From Peromyscus leucopus (taxonomy: Eukaryota > Chordata > Mammalia > Rodentia > Cricetidae), in contig NC_051082.1 of assembly GCF_004664715.2 (NCBI RefSeq), positions 7,818,498-7,882,497 on the forward strand: a DNA stretch of 64,000 nucleotides, in the 5' to 3' direction. Every line of letters begins with the position of its first letter. Positions within the stretch are counted from its first letter, which is position 1. Below, one piece after another: positions 742 to 44,239 of this stretch. Made by a program: the position numbers and the translations under genes. Under the pieces are notes generated by a model. That model saw nothing but the letters and a program-made list of their open reading frames with translations. It searched no databases and had not been told where the DNA came from.

Positions 742-749
742 TTAAACGG

Positions 750-1401
750 TGCTTCTTAGCCCAACGGATCTAAACAGTATCTTCCTCTCAATTAAAAAAT
801 CAAACTCGAGGCCGAGTTTTTTGGGTCCGCATGCTGTTAGATCAGAAGCAGACGAGAAACTAGCCCACAGCATATCTCAACCGTCGCCGATGTCTCAAGC
901 TGGTCTTGTCCTCACCTCAAGAAAAACTGGGAGGCCGTCTGAGTCCTCAAATGCCCGCCCCGAATGGGTCTCAAGCTGGAATTATCTGCTTCAATTAAGC
1001 ATGAATGCTTTAACCAGCCAGCGAAAATGCTTATCCAGCACCAATTCCTCTTACTATGCCAAAAATGAATTTCCTAGTTTCTCGCCCTCACGCCTTATAC
1101 TATCTTCCCTGCTTTCCCTACCACCACTCCCCTGGAATAAAAGGCTGAGCTTTTCTGGGATAAAGGCGTTCACCAATGCTTGGCTATTTCCCAATTGGCC
1201 CTTGACTCGACAGATGACCATAGGGATTTCTATCTCTGAAGTGCTAGGGAATAAAGGTGTGAGGCAAACCATTTTTTTCTATGCCTTGTGGTTATCTAGT
1301 GGCTGTCCCTGTTCTCCTTGACCCGCGCAGATAAATATTTATTAAGGTGGTAAACAGCAATATTTTATGTTTGGGGTGAAAACAATAGCCTCAAGACCAC
1401 A
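750..1401 (-). repeat. 3' LTR of the Tgfbr1-carrying element, insertion-rich copy
   Basis: It aligns collinearly with 2737-3283 but is about 105 bases longer because of many scattered 1-6 base insertions. Its outer end starts TG and its inner end reads CCACA, directly abutting the polypurine tract. The two LTRs of one element are identical at insertion and normally diverge mainly by substitution, so this pattern is odd. A 190-codon plus-strand ORF crossing it is incidental. Confidence 0.8.
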
Positions 1402-1415
1402 TCTCCTCTCTTTTT
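1402..1415 (-). promoter_or_regulatory. Polypurine tract (plus-strand DNA primer site)
   Basis: On the minus strand AAAAAGAGAGGAGA lies immediately upstream of the TGTGG start of the 3' LTR. An uninterrupted purine run in exactly this place is the expected polypurine tract of an LTR retroelement. Confidence 0.85.
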
Positions 1416-1649
1416 GTCTAAAATTAAAGAAAGCTTATTAACTAATACAACAAAACTATCTAATAAGTATAATACAATATATACAGACAAAAATTACATT
1501 AATGATGTCTAGTCCATTAACATTTGACAGATTCAGATAAAAACTCCATTATATATATTAACAATGTTCCAGTCCAGTAACATCTGATAAACTCAGACCA
1601 AAAAATTTTCATTACTTATCTTATTTTAAAACAAGTAGTTCCTTTTTAA

Positions 1650-1850
1650 AAGAAGATTCCATAATCTCCCTTTTTATCTTATCATATCCATATTTTCTCT
1701 TTTTTCTTTTCATAATAGATTCATTAGTCTACCTTTTGTCATTTTTATATCTTCCCCTTTTTCTTCAGTGTTAGATTCGATGATCTACCTATTTATCCTA
1801 TTATTTCTTTATCTTTTTTTCTCAAAGTAGATTCGATGATCTATCTCATA
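1650..1850 (-). repeat. Degenerate 56-63 bp tandem repeat inside the element
   Basis: The motif AGATTCGATGATCTA and close variants recur on the plus strand at 1654, 1717, 1773 and 1829, giving spacings of 63, 56 and 56 bases. The motifs are separated by T-rich (minus-strand A/G-rich) DNA. It lies between the second ORF and the polypurine tract. Function is unknown. Confidence 0.75.
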
Positions 1851-2122
1851 TCTATATTCTCTTTTTCTTTTTGCTTTCTAGGGGTGAAGATATCTTTAGG
1901 GAATCTTGAAAAGAAAATTTTTGGGTTAATCGTCAAGTCCTGTATCATTTGTCCATTCTCTGCATAAAAGGAAAGTTCAGGGCTTGTTTCAAGTCCTTGT
2001 TCAAGTAGTCTGTCAGGCTGGATCATCTCAGCTAGTCCTCTAGAAATTGTCCTGACCAGTTTGTAGTCCAAAGTCGATTTTTCTATGGTGTTAATCAGCT
2101 TAATGGCTTTATCATAGTCCAT
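1841..2122 (-). CDS. Hypothetical 93-codon ORF in the element interior
   Basis: I do not recognise this product. It is Lys/Glu/Ile rich with a basic, charged C-terminus and no obvious zinc knuckle, protease or RT motif. Its ATG lies six bases beyond the TGA that ends the Tgfbr1-derived ORF and is in the same frame. The two ORFs may therefore be one reading frame split by a single stop. It could be a degenerate gag remnant, another captured host fragment, or non-coding sequence open by chance. No cellular homologue is claimed. Confidence 0.3.
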   Translation of the reverse strand: MDYDKAIKLINTIEKSTLDYKLVRTISRGLAEMIQPDRLLEQGLETSPELSFYAENGQMIQDLTINPKIFFSRFPKDIFTPRKQKEKENIDMR

Positions 2123-2128
2123 GTGGAA

Positions 2129-2509
2129 TCATCGTTTGTAGGATCCTGTCATCTTTTTGAAGATTTCAAAGTCACTGTTAGGCGTGGTCATGGTTTCATG
2201 CAGACTCTTTTTTTTTTTTTTTCCTCCTCTGTGGTTTGGAGCAATCACAGTCTGATAAATGTCTCTCTCTCGGAACCATGAACATTTTTCTCTAGTACAG
2301 GAAATCTTCACAGCAATTTCTCCCCACCATTTTTCTTGCCAAACTTTTCCAAACTGACCTTTGCCGATGCTTTCTTGTAACACGATGGTCCTGGCAATTC
2401 TTCTCTGAACCAACAGCAGTAAACCCTTCATCCCAGGTAGCAGCATCACAGCAGTCACCAACACTATGAGAAGGAGCTGGCAACGTGGAGCAGTAGCCAC
2501 TGCTTCCAT
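2129..2509 (-). pseudogene. Tgfbr1: Captured, internally deleted TGF-beta receptor type-1 fragment within an ERV
   Basis: This 126-codon ORF starts at an ATG in good context (GGGACCATGG). The DNA just upstream also resembles the Tgfbr1 5'UTR. Residues 1-29 match the TGFBR1 signal peptide (MEA start, Leu/Val-rich core). Residues 30-88 jump to the end of the GS region and the kinase N-lobe: [14 protein letters not shown], a glycine loop read as GKGQFGKVW, and the AVK lysine equivalent to the ATP-binding lysine. Residues 89-95 jump again to the APNHR segment before the kinase P+1 region. An A15 tract (2208-2222, T on plus) then encodes a lysine run, and residues 101-126 are unrelated. Ectodomain, transmembrane segment, GS box and catalytic loop are missing, so kinase activity is not expected. 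Lack of introns fits capture from RNA. Whether it was ever translated is unknown. Confidence 0.88.
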
Positions 2510-2716
2510 GGTCCCACCACTGTTTGTGGCTCAGTCCGGGTCAAAGCTTCTCCCAAGCCTCCTAGGCCGGCTCAAACTCGGGATCCTACTGCCTCTGTTC
2601 TCCTTCAGCAAATCCTACCGGCGTGCGCCACCACCACCACCACCGGCTGAGTGTAGCTTGGGCCTGAGCTGGGGCTCACAAGGCCACAGGCAAACAGCTT
2701 TTTCATGAATTCGTAA
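2510..2716 (-). other. Element leader including Tgfbr1 5'UTR-like sequence
   Basis: This lies between the PBS and the ATG of the captured ORF. The part next to the ATG (minus strand GCCACAAACAGTGGTGGGACC) resembles the GC-rich Tgfbr1 5'UTR in decayed form. The distal part near 2630-2645 holds a GGT-rich run and a GGCGCACGCC string reminiscent of B1. Packaging signals cannot be judged by eye. Confidence 0.5.
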
Positions 2717-2734
2717 CACGAACGTTGGGCGCCA
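2717..2734 (-). promoter_or_regulatory. Primer-binding site, tRNA-Lys type
   Basis: The minus strand reads TGGCGCCCAACGTTCGTG, two bases downstream of the 5' LTR end. The first 13 bases agree with the complement of the 3' end of tRNA-Lys(1,2), the primer used by several betaretroviruses. The last five bases mostly differ. Position and sequence together identify it. Confidence 0.88.
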
Positions 2735-2736
2735 GA

Positions 2737-3283
2737 TGTTGCAGGAATCTTAAAAGTTCTTATTAATAAAATCAAACTCGAGGCCAGTTTTTGGGGTCCA
2801 TGCTGGTAGATCAGAGAGACAGAACTAGCCACAGCTATCTCACCTCGCCGATCCTCAGCTGGTCTTGTCTCCTCAGACTGGAGGCCTCTGAGTCCTCATC
2901 CGGAATGGGTCTCAGCTGAATTATGCTGCTCAAAACCTAAATGCTTAACCAGCCACATGCTTACCAGCCAAATTCCTAACCAGCCAAATGCTTCTAGTTT
3001 TCTCGCCCTCACGCCTTATATATCTTCCTGCTTTTCTACCACCACTCCCTGGGATTAAAGGCTGCTTTCTGGGATTTTAAAGGCGTGTCACCATGCTTGG
3101 CTATTTCCAATTGTGCCTTGAACTTCACAGAGATCCAGAGGGATTTTCTATCTCTTGAATGCTAGGATTAAAGGTGTGAGTGCAACCATTTTCTAGCCTT
3201 TGTATCTAGTGGCTGTCTGTTCTCTGACCCCCAGATAAATTTATTAGGGTACACAATATTTTGGGGAACACAATACCACCACA
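2737..3283 (-). repeat. 5' LTR of the Tgfbr1-carrying element
   Basis: 547 bp, running TGTGGTGGTATTGTG to CCTGCAACA on the minus strand. A TATA-like ATATATAAGG lies near 3016-3025. Its 3' terminus matches that of the solo LTR at 44246-44736. The middle contains sequence derived from B1 SINEs. The copy has small one-base indels but far fewer than its partner LTR. Confidence 0.85.
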
Positions 3284-3289
3284 TTACGG

Positions 3290-42592: not shown

Positions 42593-42870
42593 ACATCATG
42601 TATTTGTTATAAATAAATAATGTATTTATTCTTACATGGTTTCATATACACACATGTTCTCTGATCAAAGTACCCCCTCATCATCCTCTTCTATACCCTC
42701 CCTCACCAAATCCCTTCTTCCCAATCCTGCAGCCCCACTGCTCTTAGGGTGTCTGCACGAACTTGGATATGAAGGCAATCTACCCAGGAATATGGGTGGA
42801 TCCAACTCCCGCCACCAACCTTTAACTGCCCATAGCTCCTCTGGGAGGGTTGAGGCCTCATGAGCCCAGT

Positions 42871-43293
42871 CCTGTGCAGATCTGATGCAGTATCCATGCA
42901 GTTGGGAGTTCCCAGATCCTGTGCAGATCCGATGCAGTAACCATGCAGTTGGGAGTTCCCATGTCCTGTGCAGATCCGATGCAGTAGCCATGCAGTTGGG
43001 AGTTCCCAGGTCCTGTGCAGATCCGATGCAGTAGCCATGCAGTTCGGAGTTCCCAAGTCCTGTGCAGATCCGATGCAGTAGCCATGCAGTTGGGAGTTCC
43101 CAGGTCCTGTGCAGATCTGATGCAGTAGCCATGCAGTTGGGAGTTCCCAGGTCCTGTGCAGATCTGATGCAGTAGCCATTGCAGTTGGGAGTTCCCAGGT
43201 CCTGTGCAGATCTGATCAGTAGCCATGCAGTTGGGAGTTCCCAGGTCCTGTGCAGATCCAATGCAGTAGCCATGCAGTTGGGAGTTCCCAGGT
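42871..43293. repeat. 47-bp minisatellite, nine copies
   Basis: Units begin CCTGTGCAGATC at 42871, 42918, 42965, 43012, 43059, 43106, 43153, 43201 and 43247. Most are exactly 47 bases; one carries an extra T and the next a 1-base deletion. The unit has no stop codon in any minus-strand frame, so all three minus frames stay open through the array (ORFs of 158-211 codons). This is a consequence of 47 not being divisible by 3. Confidence 0.97.
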
Positions 43294-43294
43294 G

Positions 43295-44239
43295 CAGCAT
43301 CTATGCCATGTTCAGAAGACAGACTTTTGCAGCATTCCTTCCCATCCTCCAACTCTTATACCATTTCCATCTCCTCTGTGCTGTCCCCTGGGCCTTGGAG
43401 AGGGTTTGCAAGTCAGATGTAGGGCTGAGCACTCAATGGGCTTCTGGACTCAGCACACCAACCGTGTGGAGTCTCTGCTAATGCCTCACGTTGCAGGCAG
43501 AAGCCTCTTTCAACCAAGGCTGAGAGCGGTGCTAAAGTAGCAATGCTTGTGTTTGAACTTGAGGGATGAGGCTATAGCCGGGTGGCAGAGCAGGTGCTCT
43601 GTGTGTTCAAGGCTCTGGTATCCCTTCCCCTCTTCAGAAAAAAAAAAAAGTAATAAAAAAAAAAGAACAGTACAGGAGACTACTCTTCATTGCGACTATG
43701 TAGCGGTAACTAAACCAACAGCAATGCTACAATATATCTCCATGAAGGACAGAATGTGTCCACTCCACATCCTTGATTGGTTCCCACCCCACCTACTGAG
43801 GGAGATGGTGTCTATCTTGTGGGATCAACAATAGAACCTACCTCAGCAGCTGTGGGGGAAAAACAATGAGCCAAGGTTGTGGGGACACTTGTCCTCCCCA
43901 AATTTATCTGGACACTGTCATCATATTCAAAGTCCCACCACGTGCTTGGTTTGTTGGAAATTTACAAGGTGACCCTACGATGTATGAGGAAAACCAAGGG
44001 GCCAAGATTATCATGAAGAAAAAGCAAAAGTCAGGACGCTATCGTGAGTCACCAGGAGCTATTGATAAGGCTAGAGAACTTTCTAGAACACGCGCCAACA
44101 CAAGAAAGATAAATAGACTTGTGGAGCATGATGGAAAACTCAGGGGCAAGCCTAAACATTACAAAGACCTTTGGCTTTCTAAGACAGAGGTTCTTATGAA
44201 GAGCAGTGGAGACTTTGGCTTTGAAAGTAAATGGTACTG
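43295..44239. other. Single-copy DNA, no gene recognised
   Basis: Contains two poly-A stretches near 43640 and 43657. A 141-codon plus ORF (43866-44291) runs into the LTR and is not recognised. Confidence 0.5.

Follow-up and report, generated by a model that had tools for sequence, protein, structure and literature searches.

Retroviral capture of host genes is best known from tumour viruses. A germ-line case is described here from Peromyscus leucopus, in which a non-autonomous endogenous retrovirus (ERV) of ERVK-like (class II) type very likely transduced part of the TGF-beta receptor gene Tgfbr1, with splicing of host exons into the virus as the best reading of the 3′ junction; the element lies on the minus strand, from 3283 down to about 750, of a 64,000-nucleotide (nt) window that starts at C20:7818498 (NC_051082.1) in the 2.475-Gb assembly. 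The closest described systems are the mysTR-related non-autonomous ERVK subfamilies of Peromyscus maniculatus (Gozashti et al. 2023, PMC10089650), which are likewise ERVK-like elements of a deer mouse without coding machinery, their interior replaced by non-homologous sequence and a common segment lying between pol and the 3′ long terminal repeat (LTR). Compared by description only, the present element differs in that its interior is Tgfbr1 RNA and its common segment starts at a splice acceptor; the main text of that paper has no instance of 'tgf', 'kinase', 'captur' or 'acquired', and its section 7 names no source of the replacing sequence. For one non-autonomous ERV family of deer mice, Tgfbr1 thus supplies a concrete source of an interior that had no explanation. 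The ETn/MusD elements of the house mouse, as described in PMC10089650, are also non-autonomous ERVK and rely on the proteins of a related autonomous element; here, in contrast to ETn/MusD, the source of the interior has been identified, and the helper has not.

Host mRNA has also been captured by crocodilian ERVs carrying KIT-ligand and nectin3 (Chong et al. 2014, PMC4299795); the captured frames are reported there to be under purifying selection, with nectin3 present in six alligator insertions, whereas the insert described here is truncated, occurs in at least 39 distinct copies and has a near-neutral frame. FAM8A1 is a further host gene transduced by an ERV, in human (Jamain et al. 2001, as cited in PMC6987440), although both gene and virus are different ones. 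In acutely transforming retroviruses (PMC4997597) host and virus are joined through co-packaged RNA and recombination during reverse transcription, as is proposed here; the route set out there begins with readthrough of proviral polyadenylation from a provirus upstream of the gene, whereas in the present case the provirus would lie downstream, with the host promoter and splice donor leading into a viral acceptor. Retroviral capture of host mRNA is already known from these accounts (PMC4299795, PMC4997597), and the Tgfbr1 variant is new as far as the literature search shows: an ERV with Tgfbr1 is not named in the titles or abstract openings listed, a coverage from which subscription papers mostly fall out. 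The original prediction, made from the letters alone, likewise cited no described element of this kind. As a natural germ-line capture kept in many copies of different ages, the element allows both of its borders to be read base by base.

The parent gene Tgfbr1 lies at C2:58.43-58.49 Mb of the same genome, where 97 coding nt were read for exon 1, 231 nt for exon 4, 168 nt for exon 5 and 157 nt for exon 6. In the window, homology starts in the 5′ untranslated region (UTR; 2510-2561, minus strand, as are all parts of the element), from the parent position C2:58433596, 64 nt 5′ of the parent ATG. By comparison with the parent exons it continues through the coding part of exon 1 with the signal peptide (2425-2509), a part of exon 4 with the start of the kinase domain (2246-2424) and the end of exon 6, encoding IAPNHR (2223-2245). 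The window reads CCTGGGATGAAGG directly followed by GTTTACTG, which is the exact border of exon 1 and exon 4 with the phase kept. An open frame of 126 amino acids (2129-2509) spans the signal peptide, the kinase start, an A-run and viral sequence; its best match to structures of human TGFBR1 covers residues 28-90 at E 8e-24, and a second, weak block lies at IAPNHR. The identity that had been proposed from the letters is significant at this E value, which together with the exact exon borders rules out chance similarity. The predicted intronless piece with 5′UTR, start codon and signal peptide joined to the kinase start was found as well, its junction being an exon splice.

Longer relatives were obtained with a query of kinase residues past the captured part of exon 4, which gave 152 matches (150 candidates scored), the parent itself matching at C2:58.48 Mb. 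At least 27 of the matches listed are intronless, unbroken from query residue 1-2 to 119-134; the intronless relatives listed have 55-89% identity and end near the residue that closes exon 6. Among the 10 best of the 152 matches, hereafter the long copies, exons 4, 5 and 6 are contiguous in all 10, and the border of exon 1 and exon 4 is spanned by nine, having been lost in a deletion in L051. The exon borders identify the insert as spliced Tgfbr1 RNA, exon 1 followed by exons 4, 5 and 6, from which exons 2 and 3, encoding the ectodomain and transmembrane segment, were skipped by splicing that preceded capture. Isoforms of comparable kind are annotated in other mammals, with exon 1 joined to exon 5 in Ctenodactylus gundi and exon 3 lost in Pteropus alecto. 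Two internal deletions had been predicted; the one between signal peptide and kinase start is ruled out by the exact splice border, while the gap between exon 4 and exon 6 is a genuine later deletion of about 340 nt in the window-type lineage, the sequence that it removed being retained in the older, longer relatives. A deletion of most of the kinase, also predicted, did not hold beyond that exon 4-to-6 part: the insert stops at the border of exon 6, so that the C-lobe of the kinase was not part of the capture in the first place.

The element follows the order 5′ LTR, TC, primer-binding site (PBS), leader, Tgfbr1 piece, A-run, viral 3′ segment, polypurine tract (PPT) and 3′ LTR. The 5′ LTR (2737-3283) begins TGTGGTGG and ends GCAACA; against LTR stretches longer than 100 nt in other copies its identity is mostly 84-96%, with one at 75%. 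The PBS core TGGCGCCCAACG (2723-2734), which we take to be of the tRNA-Lys type, stands two bases (TC) past the 5′ LTR, and the PPT AAAAAGAGAGGAGA (1402-1415) adjoins the 3′ LTR, which begins at 1401; this arrangement, predicted earlier and read again in the window, is that of an ERVK-like (class II) element. That spliced RNA sequence of the host stands between its PBS and PPT marks it as a retroviral transduction. An A-run (2208-2222) stands at the border of host and virus, beyond which the frame lengths vary among copies, and the viral 3′ segment (1416-2207) starts at the splice acceptor of a pol-bearing relative and is common to ERVs bearing gag or pol. The 5 open reading frames (ORFs) of the element gave no Pfam match at E up to 1, and no Rfam match at the gathering score was obtained across the window.

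The predicted spread of the insert as a family was borne out. A 328-nt query (2223-2550) gave 1561 first-look candidates, of which the best 40 were scored, so that these figures are not a count of copies; more than one copy is nevertheless present, whereas a lone copy, with a target duplication around the insert itself, had been named as the outcome that would speak for a later insertion. All 40 have at least 96% identity to the query and read Tgfbr1 piece, viral 3′ segment and LTR in this order; the PBS leader is present in 38 and at least part of the upstream LTR in 34. The LTRs of the copies begin with TG and end with CA (TGTGGTGG...GCTACA). Target duplications of 6 bp are exact in 18 of the 30 testable copies and match at five of six bases in one more; a script that delimits the ends in another way gives 6/6 for some copies missed in this tally. 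Of 27 measured LTR pairs (two of them partial) nine are without substitution, and the maximum K is 0.059; several young copies were therefore inserted recently. One locus stands twice in both tallies: L003 (C1039, an unplaced contig) and L007 (C3) have identical flanks and represent a duplicate contig or an allele. Taken as read from these copies, the product of capture multiplied with LTRs, PBS, PPT and 6-bp duplications, and a sub-lineage with the deletion of about 340 nt inserted recently. Two copies are rearranged: L033 is a tandem array in the stretch read (Tgfbr1-int-LTR-PBS-Tgfbr1-int-LTR), and in L032 the viral 3′ segment stands directly before the upstream LTR.

The nature of the 3′ junction was approached from both sides. 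On the host side, one long copy is exact (L046, with CACTAAAAG joined directly to TTTTCTGCAG), three have the same junction length with substitutions (L047, L052, L053), and in six the junction is obscured by A or CA runs or by divergence; a Neotoma protein across the exon 6 border agrees, reading ...NHRVGTK-SFLQ into the viral segment. On the viral side, a query taken from the segment, its first 319 nt, yielded 4298 first-look candidates; 40 were scored, and 10 of these, absent from the listed Tgfbr1 rows, were read 200 nt upstream of the segment. Six loci (class A) read ...GAGTCTCTATCAG directly before TTTTCTGCAG, with ...CTATCAG at the acceptor and CAG in five of the six, while four (class B) read ...AAAAAGA before TTTTCTGCAG or close variants. 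Read further upstream, one class A copy shows the end of pol, at 81% identity across 355 nt with L063/L064/L070, loci that bear an integrase, and then CCCAAGAAAAAGA joined to GTAAATTGG. The class B copy L083+L078 (C6:71520803-71521903) carries gag (Pfam Gag_p24_C 4e-14, zf-CCHC_5 2e-9, Gag_p24 4e-11) and is without exactly a 474-nt GTAAAT...TATCAG stretch. The simplest reading of this gap is that a spliced intron of viral RNA was fixed in a retrotransposed copy, and if so the acceptor is real. With gag in one relative and the end of pol in another upstream of the common 3′ segment, the viral genes have been replaced in the Tgfbr1 lineage, which joins ...CACTAAAAG to TTTTCTGCAG at the class A acceptor base. 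An exon 6 border and an acceptor base meet at the join, and both sides are therefore splice borders; as the viral part starts at an acceptor and is joined to exon 6, the captured RNA probably consisted of host exons spliced into a provirus.

A series of events can be proposed on this basis. A provirus would have lain downstream of exon 6 in sense orientation, so placed that the exon 6 donor of the Tgfbr1 pre-mRNA was spliced into the viral acceptor and the transcript ended in the viral LTR. In the virion, reverse transcription may have used the 3′ R repeat of the chimeric RNA, proceeded as far as the cap at its 5′ end and there changed template, by way of a SINE-like patch, to a viral leader with the PBS; the outcome would be an LTR-flanked element without gag-pro-pol, later moved by proteins supplied in trans. 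Recombination of RNA during reverse transcription, as first predicted, fits the 5′ junction as a template switch, but the 3′ junction looks spliced.

The 5′ junction lies in a stretch of viral leader followed by a patch resembling a short interspersed element (SINE), presumably B1, that adjoins the Tgfbr1 5′UTR (2562-2722). An alignment of 20 copies with the parent places the start of homology to Tgfbr1 right after this fragment; pairwise matches start at C2:58433596 (window, L045, L050) or 58433585 (L048), 64-75 nt before the ATG. The core of the fragment, about 40-47 nt, recurs as a dispersed repeat, both in the window and around Tgfbr1. The 196 nt read upstream in the parent do not contain the fragment, which would therefore have come with the virus or as a patch made in reverse transcription; patching from a third template during reverse transcription is described in PMC4997597.

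Several observations weigh against the proposed course of events. The match to exon 6 is complete, up to base 157 of 157, in two long copies and ends at 150-156 in the other eight, and every junction base is kept in one copy only; one of the six class A copies has CAT in place of CAG, and both classes come from 10 of the 40 scored loci, with the far-upstream reading made in one copy each. In Tgfbr1 intron 6, the LTRs and viral segment of L045, L048 and L050 have no match left on the sense strand. A helper was sought in the 2.2 kb that follow 10 of the 150 scored integrase matches (L063-L072); these stretches gave no match to the LTR, leader or 3′ segment of the element, bar one of 166 nt on the opposite strand, in a repeat-like part of the LTR; the link of the element to pol-bearing relatives appeared only via class A. 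Finally, exon 6 of the host and class B both have AAAAG at the border, so that a microhomology switch could mimic splicing. The same transduction with its 3′ junction made by a template switch, at AAAAG between exon 6 and class B or at AG with class A, would account for this shared motif and for the exon 6 matches that fall short of the border. It is considered unlikely, as the host side is an exon border and the viral side an acceptor of class A that was apparently used in class B; a switch onto the class B type would moreover add an A, and no extra A is present in L046, L047, L052 or L053, while a random switch at both borders would be rare (a rough product of 1/157 x 1/900, as an order of magnitude only).

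Insertion of a Tgfbr1 processed pseudogene by a long interspersed element (LINE) into an ERV that multiplied afterwards would explain an insert that is intronless and has an A-run at its 3′ end in the window. The insert stops, however, at the internal exon 6 and not at the poly(A) end of an mRNA, by which a processed pseudogene was rejected; the long copies are without a constant poly(A) at the insert end, and both flanks of the insert are joined at functional positions of the element, leaving this explanation with a negligible probability, although no systematic search was made for a target duplication of the insert alone. Splicing of host exons into a provirus is the account retained for the 3′ junction, and can be tested on the sequence upstream of the same acceptor in related loci, for which the 4298 first-look candidates are at hand. 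A wider and tentative proposal is that deer-mouse ERVK proviruses may act as natural gene traps, the acceptor downstream of pol taking up host exons and recombination during reverse transcription mobilising the chimeric RNA, with Tgfbr1 as the best preserved case; if true, this would offer a general route to the non-homologous interiors of non-autonomous ERVK families. All 39 protein matches to the viral part carry Tgfbr1 (25 read and 14 judged by coverage, a set limited by length and gene prediction), and another recognised host exon upstream of the viral segment was found in none of the 10 sampled loci. The junction pattern had 0 matches in viral_contigs, from which records close to the genome of the window may be absent.

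Whether the captured frame has been kept for the sake of its product was judged from the 40 scored (young) copies. The start context was found in 38, all of which have the ATG, with a matching frame of 66-163 codons (104-163 in 35 of the 38). It is conceivable, if rather doubtful, that the frame has been maintained since its protein helps the element: the first 93 codons are free of stops and frame-breaking indels in 36 of the 40 young copies, and the indels common to most of them are of 3, 9 and 3 nt, the 9-nt one lying in an alanine repeat and recurring in long copies. The ratio of nonsynonymous to synonymous changes is 14:11 on the young stem versus 191:71 for singletons in the 10 long copies (10 stops counted as nonsynonymous), but this difference is not significant (Fisher p 0.10). 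In simulation, 40 changes leave the frame free of stops with a probability of 0.27, each of the 10 long copies contains in-frame stops, and the kinase is truncated, without its C-lobe. Apart from weak signs that its frame was kept, the Tgfbr1 piece is probably a passenger.

A tree of 51 rows groups the young copies in a single clade (100/100; the root was placed at midpoint and the bootstrap is not settled) and has the long copies on long separate branches around the parent. An LTR pair was found in five of the 10 long copies, with K of 0.066-0.12, two of these over only 45-58 nt. Among the matches listed, exon 1 is fused to exon 4 in proteins from Neotoma lepida, Scotinomys teguina, Peromyscus californicus and P. 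leucopus, an occurrence that rests on unevenly annotated frames; Scotinomys and Neotoma belong to the Neotominae. The gap between exon 4 and exon 6 is also present in some Scotinomys proteins (P0001, P0002, P0003).

Gene models from these genomes touch the element in two ways. P0039 and P0042, annotated as 'TGF-beta receptor type-1-like, partial' in two Peromyscus species, have exon 1 fused to exon 4 and stop at IAPNHRV, close to where the captured piece ends; they are probably ERV copies taken for genes, and Peromyscus models of this name should be used with caution, as they can be copies of an ERV. P0237, P0247 and other Scotinomys gene models, which are predictions only, begin with the captured start of Tgfbr1 and, past ...STWTK, continue into unrelated sequence, that of P0237 containing a SUI1 domain (PF01253); they look as if the element had supplied a start and a splice donor.

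The 3′ LTR of the window copy (742-1401) is rich in insertion-type sequence error. Compared with its own 5′ LTR it has 52 gap openings by blastn, while aligning the two globally gives 68 insertions, 11 deletions and 24 mismatches; the other 27 LTR pairs have 0-5 gap openings, under gap costs that differ from those of the window comparison. The stretch from 742 to 1401, possibly further left, looks like unpolished long-read assembly sequence. Because the 3′ LTR is laden with error, its outer end (about 742-770) and the target duplication of the window copy are unreadable. Elsewhere in the window, the minus strand at 42665-43352 holds overlapping repetitive open frames with a recurring ...HRTWELPTAWLL... 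unit, probably a minisatellite.

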